Part shown: positions 3,677-20,152 of the stretch, piece by piece
How positions within the stretch are numbered: the first letter of the stretch is position 1
Layout of the letters: the number at the start of each line of letters is the position of its first letter
DNA from: Coriobacteriales bacterium
GTDB taxonomy: Bacteria > Actinomycetota > Coriobacteriia > Coriobacteriales > Atopobiaceae
Direction of reading: 5' to 3'
Assembly (NCBI GenBank): GCA_030533135.1
Contig: JAUNJR010000003.1
Location: forward strand, 1 to 42,424
DNA length: 42,424 nucleotides
Notes under the pieces: model-generated
Seen by the model: only the letters and a program-made list of their open reading frames with translations
Database searches by the model: none
What the model was told of the DNA's origin: nothing
Program-made: the position numbers and the translations under genes

Positions 3677-3717
3677 GTATGAAGCTCCCTTTTGGGTTAG
3701 GGCTCTGAACTGAGTCG

Positions 3718-4926
3718 TTATGCGGCCTTAGTTCGATGATGCCAGACGGACTGGACGATGCCAACCGCCGTACAGTGAATGACCATGGAGGTGGAACCGT
3801 AGCTGATGAATGGCAACGGGATGCCCGTAATGGGCATGATGCCGATGCACATCCCCGCCTCCTGCAGGACTTGGAACGACCACATGGTGGCAACGCCTGC
3901 CAACACGAGCTTTGCGAACGGCGAATCCATCCGCTGAGCCAAGGAGATGGTGGCAAAGATCATCCAGCCGAAGAGCAAAAGGACGCCTGCAGATCCCACA
4001 AAACCAAACTCTTCCGAGAGAAGTGCAAAGACGAAGTCCGTCTGTGCCTCGGGCAGGAAGCCCGTGCCAGACTGGCTTGCGTTGCCAATCCCCTTGCCGA
4101 AGAGCCCGCCTGAACCAACGGCAATCTTTGCTTGCTGAAGGTTGTAACCACTGCCGCCCGGATCGACCGAGGGGTCAACGAAGACGATCAGTCGGTTGAG
4201 CTGGTACTCCTTAAGCACATGTGGCACGCCATCCATCATTGACGTCGCAATGGCGAGTGCTGCCACCGCCACGATCATGCCGATGGTCACCCAGACCCAG
4301 CTCGGCTTAGCCCCTGACACGATGATGATTGAGGCGCCAACGACTAGCACGATGAGGCCCGTTCCAAGGTCCGGCTGAACCAAGATGAGCAAGAACGGCA
4401 CGCACAGGATGGCACAAAGCTTCACGTAGTCGCGTAGTGTCTCGATGCGCCCGTTGTATTGGGCTCCCAGCGATGAGATGAGGAAGATAGTCACAATCTT
4501 CGAAATCTCGGATGGCTGGAACGAGATTGGTATAAAGGGTACCCTGACCCAACCGGTAATGCCGTTCTCCGACAGGCCCAATCCCGGAATTCGTGGTAGC
4601 ACCATGAGTATGCAGTCGAACACAAAGAGAGCTGTGCTCATGTTGGCAAATGCGCGGTAGTCATACGAGCGCACAAACCACATGACGATCAGGCCCAAGA
4701 CGATGCCGATCATATGGCGTTTGAAGTCTGCCGCTGCAATGTTGAGCGACGCTGACCACATCACGACCGCGCCGAAGGAAATGAGCAGGAGTGCGGGAAC
4801 AAGCTGTGGAAGATAGAATGACTGGCCAATGCCCGTCTTTGAACGCCGTTGAACCTGCGCCTCTCCTTGGCTTCTGCCCGTAGTGAGAGGACGCTGTGCT
4901 GGCGCGCTCCCAATATCTGCTGCCAT
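3718..4926 (-). CDS. rodA: Rod-shape peptidoglycan glycosyltransferase RodA (SEDS)
   Basis: A 402-residue SEDS-family polytopic membrane protein that polymerises lipid II into glycan strands during side-wall growth, paired with PBP2. A cytoplasmic N-tail of about 38 residues is followed by roughly ten membrane segments. Family landmarks are FQPSEISKI (136-144), QPDLGTG (184-190), DPGGSGYNLQQAKIAVGSGG (255-274, with the probable catalytic Asp255), and the C-terminal GIMPITGIPLPFISYGSTSM. An AGGGGAGGGG site precedes the ATG. It sits 17 bases after mrdA, the usual PBP2-RodA pairing, which argues for RodA over FtsW. Confidence 0.95.
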   Translation of the reverse strand: MAADIGSAPAQRPLTTGRSQGEAQVQRRSKTGIGQSFYLPQLVPALLLISFGAVVMWSASLNIAAADFKRHMIGIVLGLIVMWFVRSYDYRAFANMSTALFVFDCILMVLPRIPGLGLSENGITGWVRVPFIPISFQPSEISKIVTIFLISSLGAQYNGRIETLRDYVKLCAILCVPFLLILVQPDLGTGLIVLVVGASIIIVSGAKPSWVWVTIGMIVAVAALAIATSMMDGVPHVLKEYQLNRLIVFVDPSVDPGGSGYNLQQAKIAVGSGGLFGKGIGNASQSGTGFLPEAQTDFVFALLSEEFGFVGSAGVLLLFGWMIFATISLAQRMDSPFAKLVLAGVATMWSFQVLQEAGMCIGIMPITGIPLPFISYGSTSMVIHCTAVGIVQSVWHHRTKAA

Positions 4927-4943: not shown

Positions 4944-6971
4944 TTATCGAGCGCCGGTCTCGTCGACCGCGTCGGACGTGTCGGGCTCATCGTAAATAGC
5001 GCCCATGATGTCACGAACTACGTACATTGCAGATTGGCTACCGTACCCGCCCTGTTCCACCAAAGATGCAACGGCATACTTTGGATTGTCAGTCGGAACG
5101 AAGGCAATAAACCAACCAGTCGGCTCGCGCCCCGCACGTTCTGCGGTTCCCGTCTTTCCCGCCACCGTCTCGACCATGTTGGTGAAGTGCGCTGCCTGAG
5201 CAGGCGATTCCTCGTAGATAACGCCCTTAAGCCCCCGCTCGACCAGCTCATACGAGGTCTTGGGCTCCGTCACAGAACGATTAATCTCAGGGCTGTGCTC
5301 GATGACCGTGCCCGAGCCCGTCGCGGAACGGATGCTTTTCAGCACGTGCGGCTTCCACATGGTGCCACGTGTGGCCAATCCCGCATAGACGCAGCACATC
5401 TGCAGCGGTGTGACCAAGATGTCGCCCTGGCCGATGGAGAGGTTGGTGCTGTCACCACCCTGCCACTGGCGCACATCATCGGGCGAGGTGTCCCAATAGT
5501 TCCACTTCCACTCGGCGTCTGGCACGCGGCCCGGTTCTTCCGAGGGCAGGTCAACGCCCGTCTCGGTGCCAAGGCCCCAGTTGCGATACGTCTCTTGGAG
5601 ACCCTCGCTATCTGCGACGTAGAACCCTTTGCCAATCTCGTAGAAGACGATGTCGCAGGAGTAGGTGATGCCGGACTGCAGGTTCATCCCACCATGACCG
5701 TAATGGTCCCAGCAGTACTGGCCAGCATCCTCGCCAAAGCCCGTCCAGAATCCCGAGCAATAGAAGCTTGTCTCGGGCGTTGCGATATTGTAGTCGAGGG
5801 CTGCCAGCACACCCAGCGGCTTGATGGTGGACGCCGATGGGTACAAGCCGGAGACGACACGGTTCATCAGGGGGCTGGCGCTGTCTTCGGAACTCAGACG
5901 TGCCCAGTCATCATACGAGATGCCGCCTGTGAAGACGCTTGGGTTATAGGTGGGAGCGCTTGCAAGAGCGATGATCTCACCATTTGTGACGTCCATGGCC
6001 ACCGCACAGCCAGCATTGCATTCCTTGTTTCCGCTGGCACGGATCTGATTGATAACGCGTGCCAAAGATTCCTCTGCGGTACGCTGCACCTTCGCGTCGA
6101 TGGTCAGCACCACGTCCGAGCCGCTCTGAGGGTCGATCGACGCCGAGCTGTCCAACACGCTGCCGTAGGCATCGACGTAAACCACCTGCTCGCCGCGTAT
6201 GCCCTGGAGCACGCTCTCGTATTGGTACTCAATGCCTGCCTGGCCGACAATGTCACCCGCACTGTATTTGATTCCCTCATGGTTGCGCGGGTCCTCGCTC
6301 CATTCGAGAGCCTCTTGGCTGATAGTCCCCGTGTAGCCAAGCACATGCGCGGCAAGGCTTCCGTTGGGATAGAGACGCTCCGTTCTCTCCTCAACCGCAA
6401 CGCCATTGAAGAGGTAGGGATGCTCGTCGATAAAGGCCACCACGCGTCGAGACACGTCGACGGCCACCGTGCGCTTGTTCTGGGCACCTTCGTTCTGGTT
6501 CTGAATCTTACGGCGCACGGCGTAATATGGCATGCCGATAAGGTTGGCGAGGAGCATCATCTCGACCTCGTCATCCACCACATCAGGCTCTGCCGCTACG
6601 GCAAGGCAAGAACGATTGGCAACAAGTTCAACGCCGTTGCGGTCCAAGATGCGCCCTCGTGGAGCGGACGTCGTCAGAGTGCGGGTTCGGTTTGATTCTG
6701 CCTGCTTGGAATACTCATCAGAGCTCACGAGCTGCATGGACCAAAGCCTTGCGATAAGCACACCGATGATGGTGCCCGAGAAGATTCGCAGGCCATTCAA
6801 ACGTCGATGAAACCCTGTTTCCGTCGAGGTGTCGGAACCGCCTGCCGCCTTAGGAACGGCGTTGCCAATATCGAGCTTGAAGGTCTCACGAAGCTCGCGA
6901 CGACGTGCGTAGAGCACCAGGCAAAACGCTACGAACAGCGCGCAGATGACGATAATGAGGACGATACGCAT
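4944..6971 (-). CDS. mrdA: Penicillin-binding protein 2, elongasome transpeptidase
   Basis: A 675-residue class B PBP that cross-links peptidoglycan with RodA. The pedestal domain runs from about residue 85 to 270 and the transpeptidase domain from about 310 to 660. The catalytic signatures are S381-T-I-K384 (SxxK), S438-C-D440 (SxN position, with Asp as is usual in PBP2), and K606-T-G608. The canonical membrane anchor is at about 61-82 (LRIFSGTIIGVLIARLW). A second hydrophobic segment at residues 2-22 precedes it, which is unusual. The gene is followed by rodA and preceded by mreD, six bases away. Confidence 0.96.
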   Translation of the reverse strand: MRIVLIIVICALFVAFCLVLYARRRELRETFKLDIGNAVPKAAGGSDTSTETGFHRRLNGLRIFSGTIIGVLIARLWSMQLVSSDEYSKQAESNRTRTLTTSAPRGRILDRNGVELVANRSCLAVAAEPDVVDDEVEMMLLANLIGMPYYAVRRKIQNQNEGAQNKRTVAVDVSRRVVAFIDEHPYLFNGVAVEERTERLYPNGSLAAHVLGYTGTISQEALEWSEDPRNHEGIKYSAGDIVGQAGIEYQYESVLQGIRGEQVVYVDAYGSVLDSSASIDPQSGSDVVLTIDAKVQRTAEESLARVINQIRASGNKECNAGCAVAMDVTNGEIIALASAPTYNPSVFTGGISYDDWARLSSEDSASPLMNRVVSGLYPSASTIKPLGVLAALDYNIATPETSFYCSGFWTGFGEDAGQYCWDHYGHGGMNLQSGITYSCDIVFYEIGKGFYVADSEGLQETYRNWGLGTETGVDLPSEEPGRVPDAEWKWNYWDTSPDDVRQWQGGDSTNLSIGQGDILVTPLQMCCVYAGLATRGTMWKPHVLKSIRSATGSGTVIEHSPEINRSVTEPKTSYELVERGLKGVIYEESPAQAAHFTNMVETVAGKTGTAERAGREPTGWFIAFVPTDNPKYAVASLVEQGGYGSQSAMYVVRDIMGAIYDEPDTSDAVDETGAR

Positions 6972-9685: not shown

Positions 9686-11176
9686 TTATTCTTCGACGGT
9701 GCCTTCAGTAGTCGTCGAGCCGTCCTCGGAATACGCTTCCGTATTCTCGGTAGTCTGCTCACCCTCAGCAGCTGCACCATCAGTCGTAGCGGCTCCGGCG
9801 TCAGCAGCCGCGGCCTGATCGGCCTCGGTTGCCGTTTCCTCACCCTCAGCAACGGTCTCATTCGGGTCATCAAGTGCCGGTGTCACGCCGCCCTGCGAAG
9901 GATACACAGCGGCAACCGAGGCGACCTTCCAGCTGATGCCGTCACGCAGGAGGTGAACCTCATAGCTCTGCTCGCCACCTGCAGAGAGCGTAGCCGTGCA
10001 GAAGACAGTTGTCTCGGTCATGGTGCGATCAACGCCCGTGACCTTGATGTTCGTAGACGAGGAGGGTAGCACGTTCTTGATCTGCTGCTGCGCGTCAGCC
10101 TCAACGGTCTCATCCAGGAGATCAGCGATGTCCTCCCCTGCCGACTTACGCGTGAACAGCTGCTCGACGACGGCTTCCTGCGTCGGCCAACCATAGCCAC
10201 TGTAATAGCCATAGCCGCAAACACCAGCAGCGATGAGTGCAAGCAGGAGAAGGAAAATGAAGATCTTCCTTCCGGTATGACGATGCTTGCGCTTCATGCG
10301 GCGGTTACGGCGGTCCTGCTCCACCATTTCCTTCTCGGTGATGGAGAAGAAGCCCGTGTCCTCGGGGGACGGCATGAACTCGCCGGACTCGCCCAGCGGA
10401 TCAAGCGGGTCATAGCTGCCAGTGCCATAACCAGCGGCAGCAAGGAACTGATCGGTCTCGGAGGGGCTTCCGCCAGAGATGGCCGCTGCAGCACGCTTGG
10501 CAGCCTCGTACGCAACAGTCGCCTCAACCGAAAGCAGATAGGTGCCGTCAGCCGTCGCGTGCGAGAAGGCGTCAACTGCCTCGCTCATACGGTTTGCGGC
10601 AACATACGCCATGCCCAGGTCGGCATAGATAGCGTTCTGGTCAGCCTGCGGAGAGGAGAAGTCGAGAGCCGTGCGATACGCCTCAACGGCATCCACTGGA
10701 CGACCCATCTGGACAAAGCAGGATCCAAGGCTACGGAGCGCCGAGGACGGATCAGGGTTGCTCTCGTCGATAGCCGCATTGCGGAATGCAACACCAGCGT
10801 CACGAGCGTTTCCTACCTTCAGGTAAGCATTGCCAAGAGCAATCTGCACCTTGTACGGCGTCGGATAGGAGGTGTCCTTGGTTGCCATCGTAAGGGATGC
10901 AATGGCCTCCTGCGGCTTGCCTGCCGCCAAGAGGGCACGGCCACGATTGCACGCAAGCGCTCCCGCGTTACCATACGACGCATCGCGCAGCGCATCACCA
11001 TAGCACGCGGCTGCCTCGTCGTAGCGACCAAGCTTCATGAGGCAGTTGCCCAGCAGGTGATCAACACTGCCGGAGACCTCGCCAGGCTGCTTTGCCTGAG
11101 AGAGCGCCTCGATAGCACCCATGACGTTACCCTGTCGATATGCTGTCTTTCCCGCTTCAAATGCCTGTTGGTTCAC
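9686..11176 (-). CDS. TPR-repeat single-pass membrane protein
   Basis: 496 residues of unknown specific function. Residues 1-230 hold about six tetratricopeptide units, recognisable by repeats such as LLGNCLMKLGRYDEAAACYG and DLGMAYVAANRMSEAVDAFS. A basic stretch (RRNRRMKRKHRHTGRK, about 289-304) precedes one transmembrane helix (about 305-323), which places the TPR part in the cytosol. The outside part (about 330-430) looks like a small alpha+beta domain. The last 60 residues are Ala/Thr/Glu-rich and low complexity. It starts at GTG with GAGGAG five bases upstream. It lies between the cyclophilin gene and mreB, suggesting an envelope-linked role. Confidence 0.75.
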   Translation of the reverse strand: MNQQAFEAGKTAYRQGNVMGAIEALSQAKQPGEVSGSVDHLLGNCLMKLGRYDEAAACYGDALRDASYGNAGALACNRGRALLAAGKPQEAIASLTMATKDTSYPTPYKVQIALGNAYLKVGNARDAGVAFRNAAIDESNPDPSSALRSLGSCFVQMGRPVDAVEAYRTALDFSSPQADQNAIYADLGMAYVAANRMSEAVDAFSHATADGTYLLSVEATVAYEAAKRAAAAISGGSPSETDQFLAAAGYGTGSYDPLDPLGESGEFMPSPEDTGFFSITEKEMVEQDRRNRRMKRKHRHTGRKIFIFLLLLALIAAGVCGYGYYSGYGWPTQEAVVEQLFTRKSAGEDIADLLDETVEADAQQQIKNVLPSSSTNIKVTGVDRTMTETTVFCTATLSAGGEQSYEVHLLRDGISWKVASVAAVYPSQGGVTPALDDPNETVAEGEETATEADQAAAADAGAATTDGAAAEGEQTTENTEAYSEDGSTTTEGTVEE

Positions 11177-18297: not shown

Positions 18298-18457
18298 GGC
18301 GTAACTCCTTTAATGACTTAGCGAACGATTCTTATCACAACGCCAGAATACACCCGGTTGCAGACAACAATTCTGTTGTACATGAGTTCAATGAGGTAAA
18401 CATGAATTGCGGTGAGCGTTTTTTGTTCGAGTCCCGGTGGGCCGGACACACAGGAAA

Positions 18458-18489: not shown

Positions 18490-18566
18490 TGGTGCCCCCA
18501 GGGGGACTCGAACCCTCGACCTTCTGCTCCGGAGGCAGACGCTCTAATCCGCTGAGCTATAGGGGC
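18490..18566 (-). tRNA. tRNA-Arg (anticodon CCG)
   Basis: The minus strand folds as a complete 77-nt tRNA. The acceptor stem GCCCCTA pairs with TGGGGGC. The D-arm has AGCTCAGCGGATTAGAGC, the anticodon loop contains CTCCGGA with anticodon CCG (reads CGG), and the T-arm has GGTTCGAGTCC. The discriminator base is A, and the CCA end (complement of 18490-18492) is encoded. It stands alone, without neighbouring tRNAs. Confidence 0.95.
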
Positions 18567-18674: not shown

Positions 18675-18983
18675 TTCACGCGAAGTGCCAATTTGACTCT
18701 CTATTAGGCTTCTGATGACACTTCGCGTGAAGTCTTACTGGGAGAATGCCTCAATAACTTCACGTGAAGTGGCTAATTCGCACTCGTCGATGCCCTTGGC
18801 GCCATTTCGCGTGAAGTCGTACGGGGAGAATGCCTCCTGGAATTCACGCGAAGTGCCTTTCGCAAGCTCCTAAAGGTACGCAATCCCACTTCGCGTGAAG
18901 TTGTACGTGGAGAACGCCTCCCGAGGTTCACGCGAAGTGCAAATTTGGCTCTCCCGGAGACCCCCGACACCACTTCGCGTGAA
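18675..18983. repeat. Array of eight alternating inverted 13-mers, 84-bp period
   Basis: Four copies of TTCACGCGAAGTG start at 18675, 18759, 18843 and 18927. Four reverse-complement copies (CACTTCGCGTGAA) start at 18719, 18803, 18887 and 18971. Distances alternate exactly 44 and 40 bases, giving an 84-bp period (about eight helical turns). Two copies carry one mismatch each (18759 and 18803). The 27-base segments between a reverse and the next forward copy are conserved (pattern GTcgTACgGGGAGAAtGCCTC). The 31-base segments between a forward and the next reverse copy are mostly variable. The array occupies the gene-free stretch 18567-19132 between tRNA-Arg and aroF. Function unknown. Confidence 0.97.
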
Positions 18984-18988
18984 ACCAC

Positions 18989-19008
18989 GTGACAGCAAGC
19001 CCTGTCAC
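18989..19008. promoter_or_regulatory. Inverted repeat upstream of the aroF promoter
   Basis: GTGACAG and CTGTCAC are perfect 7-base arms around a six-base centre (CAAGCC). The element lies between the repeat array and the proposed -35 box, about 32 bases upstream of the latter. It could be an operator for the aromatic operon; nothing identifies the regulator. Confidence 0.4.
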
Positions 19009-19040
19009 AAAACATTTGGGTTACAGGTAGCCACTGCAAC

Positions 19041-19069
19041 TTGCGACGCTTCATCACAACTCGTACTAT
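19041..19069 (+). promoter_or_regulatory. Candidate sigma-70-type promoter for the aro operon
   Basis: TTGCGA (19041-19046) and TACTAT (19064-19069) are separated by 17 bases, each matching four of six consensus positions. Transcription would begin near 19076, leaving a leader of about 57 bases before aroF. No T-box, leader peptide or attenuator hairpin is visible in that leader. Confidence 0.45.
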
Positions 19070-19132
19070 GACCCGTTATGAAATCTGCAGCGTAGGCCAT
19101 AGGCATACGCACCGTCGATAAAGGAGAGGTCC

Positions 19133-20152
19133 ATGATTGCCATCATCAAGTCATCCTGCACCCCCGAACAGTTACAACACTTTGTCCGCTGGATTGAAGG
19201 GCGAGGCTTCTCCACCAATGTCAGCCGTGGTGACAACGAGACCATCGTCGGCATCATCGGTGACACGACGCAAATCGACCCGTTCCTGCTCGAATCAATG
19301 GACATCATTGAGCGGGTTCAGCGCGTTTCCGAGCCTTTCAAGAAGGCCAATCGCAAGTTCCATCCTGAAGATACGATTGTGGACTGCGGGCACGGCGTCC
19401 TTGTTGGTGGCGGACATTTCCAGGTTATGGCTGGCCCCTGCTCGGTTGAGGGCAAAAACCTCATCCAAATAGCCCGAGCCGTCAAGGAAGCTGGCGCAAC
19501 CATGCTTCGCGGCGGCGCATTCAAGCCACGCACTTCGCCTTATGCCTACCAGGGCATGGGCGAGAAAGGCCTTGATCTGCTGCTCGAGGCTTCCGCAGAA
19601 CTTGACATGCCCATCGTGACCGAGGTCATGGATGTTCGTGACGTCGCGCTTTTCGTTGACAAAGGCATCGACGTCATGCAGATTGGCGCTCGCAATGCCC
19701 AGAACTTCAACCTCCTCAAAGAAGTTGGTAAGACCAACATTCCCGTGCTGCTCAAGCGTGGTCTGTCCGGCACTATTGACGAGCTGCTCATGGCTGCTGA
19801 ATACATCATGAGCGAGGGTAACGAGAAGGTCATGCTCTGCGAGCGTGGCATTCGCACGTTTGAGACAAGAACGCGCAACACCTTTGACGTAAATGCGATT
19901 CCAGTGCTGCATTACCTCACTCACCTGCCGGTCATAGCCGATCCAAGCCATGCCACAGGCTACACCCGATACGTGCGATCGATTGCTTATGCGGCTACCG
20001 CAGCCGGTGCAGACGGACTCGAAATCGAAGTCCACAACTGCCCCTCTGAGGCGTGGTCTGACGGCGCCCAAGCACTTACCCCTGCCCAGTTTGACGACGC
20101 CATGCGCCGTATCGCGCTGATCCGTGAGGCCATTACGGCGGAGGTGGCCTAA
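19133..20152 (+). CDS. aroF: 3-deoxy-7-phosphoheptulonate (DAHP) synthase
   Basis: 339 residues. It condenses phosphoenolpyruvate with erythrose-4-phosphate, the first shikimate step. An N-terminal ferredoxin-like regulatory domain (about 1-70) precedes the catalytic barrel, as in Thermotoga-type type I enzymes, where it confers feedback control. Active-site landmarks are VMAGPCSVEG, RGGAFKPRTSPYAYQG, QIGARNAQNF, LLKRGLSGT, CERGIRTFE, IADPSHATG and EVHNCPSEAWSDGAQAL. AAGGAGAGG precedes the ATG. It is the first gene of the aromatic cluster, and its stop overlaps the tyrA start by one base (TAATG). Confidence 0.95.
   Translation: MIAIIKSSCTPEQLQHFVRWIEGRGFSTNVSRGDNETIVGIIGDTTQIDPFLLESMDIIERVQRVSEPFKKANRKFHPEDTIVDCGHGVLVGGGHFQVMAGPCSVEGKNLIQIARAVKEAGATMLRGGAFKPRTSPYAYQGMGEKGLDLLLEASAELDMPIVTEVMDVRDVALFVDKGIDVMQIGARNAQNFNLLKEVGKTNIPVLLKRGLSGTIDELLMAAEYIMSEGNEKVMLCERGIRTFETRTRNTFDVNAIPVLHYLTHLPVIADPSHATGYTRYVRSIAYAATAAGADGLEIEVHNCPSEAWSDGAQALTPAQFDDAMRRIALIREAITAEVA

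Follow-up and report, generated by a model that had tools for sequence, protein, structure and literature searches.

Whether alternating repeat arrays owe their upkeep to a selected function is an old question. It is raised directly by a locus in an uncultured gut-type actinobacterium (Coriobacteriales, Atopobiaceae) whose intergenic regions contain arrays of a short 13-letter word and its mirror image, alternating at fixed distances, and these arrays now make the question directly testable. We know of no cultured representative of this species. The window analysed here is the first 42,424 bp of contig JAUNJR010000003.1 (assembly GCA_030533135.1), and one of the arrays lies between a tRNA-Arg gene and the aro operon (Table 1).

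Organization of the window array

The eight 13-mers of the window array follow one another at start-to-start distances of 44, 40, 44, 40, 44, 40 and 44 bp; six are exact, and the copies at 18759 and 18803 have one mismatch each, just as first described. One of these mismatches, a C7T change in the left arm of A unit 2 (TTCACGTGAAGTG), makes the core of that copy fully symmetric. The 84 bp repeat corresponds arithmetically to eight turns at 10.5 bp per turn. Tandem Repeats Finder does not report the array in the window because its spacers are too diverged, and in an Rfam scan the tRNA alone scores above threshold, with no further family passing.

Table 1. Coordinates of the array and its neighbours in the window, and of fold-back elements in the congener G128 (locus:position).
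Feature	Position	Strand	Description
13-mer copies	18675+, 18719-, 18759+, 18803-, 18843+, 18887-, 18927+, 18971-		Start coordinates of TTCACGCGAAGTG or its complement
Whole array	18675..18983	.	Four 57-bp inverted-pair A units with three 27-bp B linkers between them
A unit 1	18675..18731	.	TTCACGCGAAGTG + 31 nt + CACTTCGCGTGAA; both arms exact
A unit 2	18759..18815	.	Left arm TTCACGTGAAGTG, right arm CATTTCGCGTGAA
A unit 3	18843..18899	.	Both arms exact
A unit 4	18927..18983	.	Both arms exact
B linker 1	18732..18758	.	27 nt
B linker 2	18816..18842	.	27 nt
B linker 3	18900..18926	.	27 nt
tRNA-Arg(ccg)	18490..18566	-	On the left; transcription points away from the array
DAHP synthase	19133..20152	+	Right neighbour; first gene of the aro operon
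Presumed aro promoter block	18999..19082	+	Kept upstream of aro in four congeners (alignment)
G128 fold-back elements	L114:1616-1712, 3715-3810, 6327-6515, 10873-10968; L121:1478-1574; L123:5981-6046

The position just upstream of the aro operon, to which the original prediction drew attention, is accurate, but it is incidental to the array. A conserved block upstream of aro (CAAAACGATTCGGTTAC ... TACCAT ... TTATGAA), presumed to be the aro promoter, starts approximately 16 bp to the right of the array end, and the array therefore lies outside the presumed aro transcript. A promoter consensus scan upstream of aro gave no 9-of-12 match and no strong consensus. At 18425-18441 of the window is GTTCGAGTCCCGGTGGG, which has 88% complementarity with the 3' portion of the adjoining tRNA-Arg gene; it may be left over from a tRNA end or be an attachment site.

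A dispersed family of arrays

The genome is available as a fragmented metagenome-assembled genome of 2.15 Mb in 251 contigs, 87% complete. A search of the whole assembly with TTCRCGYGAAGTG at up to one mismatch finds 104 sites compared with 12 for a reversed control pattern, and exact copies of the 13-mer are essentially confined to arrays with the 44/40 geometry, which lie on ten or more contigs; together these results exclude chance. The genome thus contains at least ten arrays and probably 11 (contigs C27, C44, C79, which holds the window array, C89, C142, C143, C163, C198, C208 and C236, while C186 opens with a single exact copy), so that the initial report of eight alternating 13-mers was correct and an understatement. 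Contig ends cut C89, C163, C186 and C236.

The geometry is uniform across the family. Among 77 sites in the arrays read, each with two mismatches or fewer and 13 standing isolated, there are 53 neighbour pairs, and all 53 are in opposite orientation. The forward-to-reverse step is 44 bp (27 cases) or 43 bp (3) in all 30 instances, and the reverse-to-forward step is 40 bp (20) or 39 bp (2) in 22 of 23, the other being 50 bp. Five of the seven intact arrays are built of whole 57-bp inverted pairs and 27-bp linkers; those on C27 and C143 have one extra site each. No solitary inverted pair was seen among the 13 isolated sites. The flanking genes are ordinary, including DAHP synthase with tRNA-Arg, a HAD phosphatase, MgsA/RarA, a DUF4256 protein, carB (identified by eye) and others, and the settings are divergent, convergent and co-directional.

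Conservation of sites and distances

The 13-mers depart from consensus at 2.4% of positions, a figure somewhat biased by the arrays having been found through the 13-mer, although copies within arrays were accepted with as many as three mismatches. Spacer divergence from consensus is 40% for the 31-nt and 45% for the 27-nt segments. The contrast first drawn between conserved 27-base and variable 31-base segments accordingly holds within the window array, where the former are more alike, but genome-wide both diverge between arrays. In 52 intervals the spacers show 507 or more departures from consensus but just five 1-bp indels, a count that treats related copies as independent, and length is therefore far more conserved than sequence. 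Together with the unbroken alternation, this supports the suggestion that geometry is under selection, although lengths would also stay constant if units were copied and moved as wholes. Neighbouring units are identical in C142, C143 and C27, indicating growth by 84-bp tandem duplication.

Only two of 34 changed arm positions are compensated, the other 32 being uncompensated, and the spacers are no more stably folded than their shuffled versions (mean z 0.2 and -0.5). The constraint is thus on words and distances and not on base pairing, and points to recognition of the sequence itself. Negative pairing covariation was seen in the spacers and set aside as a product of mixed array orientation. 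Each 13-mer holds an imperfect dyad, TTCRCGYGAA, which in a few copies becomes the fully symmetric core TTCACGTGAA; distances between core centres, computed from the coordinates, are 47 and 37 bp.

A second family of period 52 in the genus

Further copies had been proposed as a test, and there are many in the genome itself but no 13-mer array in relatives; instead an analogous array with another motif is found. The 57-bp pair has no match in 139 other genomes of the family, 17 congeners included, and the 13-mer pair pattern has none in GTDB contigs and viral contigs. A looser search of the class with the core gave, among the matches listed outside the genome itself, canonical parS and near variants.

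In 400 kb of the congener G134 (RUG13402), inspected without a preset motif, ATGTCGGAAGTGC alternates with its complement at steps of 25/27 and a period of 52, at six or more loci. A genus-wide search for the exact motif TTCCGACA-N-TGTCGGAA, permitting gaps of 6-36 nt, finds it at 45 places in five species with a gap of 16 nt in every case (45/45); outside the genus there are few matches, with other gaps of 11 to 30 nt. With one mismatch permitted the gap is 20 nt in 85 of 93 and 16 nt in 78 of 83 occurrences, and the enclosed sequences are 48% (20-nt) and 34% (16-nt) identical between loci. The array architecture is therefore present a second time in the genus, built from a different word and with a different period. 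In both of these independent families the sites and their precise distances are preserved while all else drifts, as would be expected of a functional multi-site nucleoprotein array. The motif of the 52-bp family (TGTCGGAA/TTCCGACA) is not a dyad, so a common mode of action for the two families need not be assumed. An array of this sister family is also present on CAMBBY010000306.1 (L256), binned as Prevotella but probably a misbinned Coriobacteriia contig.

A proposed role as protein-binding arrays

Fixed-distance arrays here and arrays of another word in sister species suggest a putative DNA-binding protein that needs exact distances. The window array would then be one of a dispersed, species-specific intergenic family serving as double-stranded DNA-binding sites, each 13-mer, with its imperfect dyad, being recognised by a putative sequence-specific protein. 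Adjacent protein units may touch one another in alternating orientation; through such contact selection would hold the order and distances of the sites (47/37 bp from one core centre to the next, repeating every 84 bp) but leave the intervening DNA free to drift, and arrays would lengthen and shorten through tandem duplication of the 84-bp unit. A role in aro regulation is not expected, and the likely one is architectural in the manner of BIMEs: shaping the nucleoid locally, forming a barrier, or anchoring supercoils or gyrase.

As such, we read the family tentatively, from its sequences, as BIME-like arrays of binding sites for a putative species-specific protein with a fixed geometry under selection, and put the probability of this at roughly 0.45. 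Dispersed binding-site arrays with selection on both site identity and distance are the most economical account of the data, while the protein, its cooperativity and the role of the arrays are what we infer from them. The cooperative protein-binding array of the original prediction remains the most likely mechanism, but the protein was not found. That the arrays represent a new class of nucleoprotein array, with fast-evolving species-specific sites at a fixed repeat length near a whole number of helical turns (84 bp, 52 bp), a co-evolving putative protein and a function as dispersed architectural anchors of the chromosome, is a further step that we consider unlikely.

Comparison with other repeat systems

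The usual account treats BIMEs as remnants of transposition whose roles are secondary. The arrays could be such a REPIN/BIME-type non-autonomous element, a hairpin pair once spread by an HUH (Y1) REP transposase and now present in tandem copies with no present role, which is possible if somewhat doubtful. Like REPINs (PMC3116915) and BIMEs (PMC2817692) the inverted pairs are intergenic, dispersed and species-specific, and have conserved end motifs at a fixed distance around a variable middle; like BIME-2 and Xanthomonas-type REP clusters (PMC2817692) they are short motifs in strict alternation and regular spacing, duplicated in tandem. The genome also encodes one Y1 transposase, but this sole Y1 gene has another palindrome at its flanks (TGGACAAAAGGGAC...) and not the 13-mer, and a RAYT link to the arrays was rejected on these grounds. 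No RAYT gene with flanking 13-mers is present in the 87%-complete assembly, from which one could be missing, and the array-rich congener G134 has no Y1 match. The tetranucleotide tag GTAG is beside none of the 52 intervals and CGTC beside three. Complementary changes preserve the 20-60 bp palindromes of BIMEs, and inter-REP lengths vary (PMC2817692); the 13-mer arrays are the opposite, with a 10-14 bp imperfect dyad lacking compensation and spacers of constant length and diverged sequence at unrelated loci. REPINs of Pseudomonas are mostly single (PMC3116915), whereas these arrays are few in loci but long and no solitary unit occurs in the DNA examined. The label BIME-like, which had been offered from the outset, fits the architecture, and is used here for layout and not for origin.

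Wrapping of phased, bendable DNA around gyrase, as a candidate, or another wrapping protein, as at E. coli BIME-2, is quite improbable. In E. coli, gyrase cuts are concentrated in BIME-2 and the gyrase motif has a GC content periodic at 10.75 bp (PMC6379681), and here purine and pyrimidine runs alternate in the 31-nt spacers, and A/T and G/C runs in the 27-nt spacers, with periods near 10.5 bp. This strong 10-10.5 bp alternation within single spacers is limited to one family, however; other periods are equally strong over the full 84-bp unit and the 10.4-bp signal is absent from the 52-bp family, so that helical bending was demoted as a general rule. The purine/pyrimidine conservation of the 31-nt spacers is roughly that expected from shared ancestry and a normal excess of transitions, and a wrapping enzyme would have no need of invariant 13-mers. 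RNA hairpins acting as terminators, mRNA stabilisers or switches, the last of which had been suggested earlier, are disfavoured and highly improbable: complementarity of the arms and strong folding of the array as RNA speak for them, but the lack of compensation, the shuffle-level spacers and the absence of any Rfam family other than tRNA argue against them, as do arrays between divergent genes and the promoter-like aro block downstream of the window array. Least probable is a centromere-like or ParB-type array, also among the initial suggestions, which the parS-like core prompts and which is favoured by the identity of the two cores in some copies (TTCACGTGAA). ParB sites would be expected to cluster near parAB/oriC, but the two canonical parS sites of the genome and its single ParB are together on C247, which excludes ParB/parS as a dedicated partner, and the arrays are scattered over at least ten other contigs; nor is the sister-family motif parS-like.

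Repeated ParB-family sites are found in sopC of the F plasmid, with a period of about 43 bp. This is near the mean site spacing of 42 bp in the arrays, and the core of parS resembles that of the 13-mer, but the array sites are alternately inverted and dispersed at many loci. Canonical parS (GTTTCACGTGAAAC) occurs in many Coriobacteriia as doublets approximately 40-49 bp apart (e.g. L078, L079, L095 and L098), as seen through a search gap of 30-40 nt that limits the visible spacings. CRISPR arrays likewise alternate constant and variable segments of fixed length, but the constant part here is an inverted pair and the variable segments share a consensus across arrays, unlike those of CRISPR, for which reason CRISPR is disfavoured; no cas gene is present among the neighbour proteins scanned, and the 57-bp inverted pair is on no viral contig. 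A coding repeat was also rejected: although 84 is a multiple of 3, steps of 43 and 39 bp shift the reading frame, and 52, the period of the sister family, is not divisible by 3.

Other repeats in these genomes

The Y1/HUH RAYT-like transposase of 253 aa is encoded at L149:1093-2008 (C217), with TGGACA..AGGGAC.GTCCCTTTTGTCCA palindromes on both sides that are likely REP-like sites of that gene. The congener G128 has a dispersed fold-back family of the form TGCGAATGTTGAC-18 nt-GTCAACATCAGCA-about 9 nt-TGCTGATGTTGAC-18 nt-GTCAACATTCGCA (Table 1). The 18-nt parts differ between elements and are complementary across the arms within any one element, so pairing seems to be maintained there. A further repeat type, with a period of about 121 bp and containing palindromes GGTTTGACTGTCTTTGTTCAGTCAAACC, is present in G134 at L129:2174-2387.
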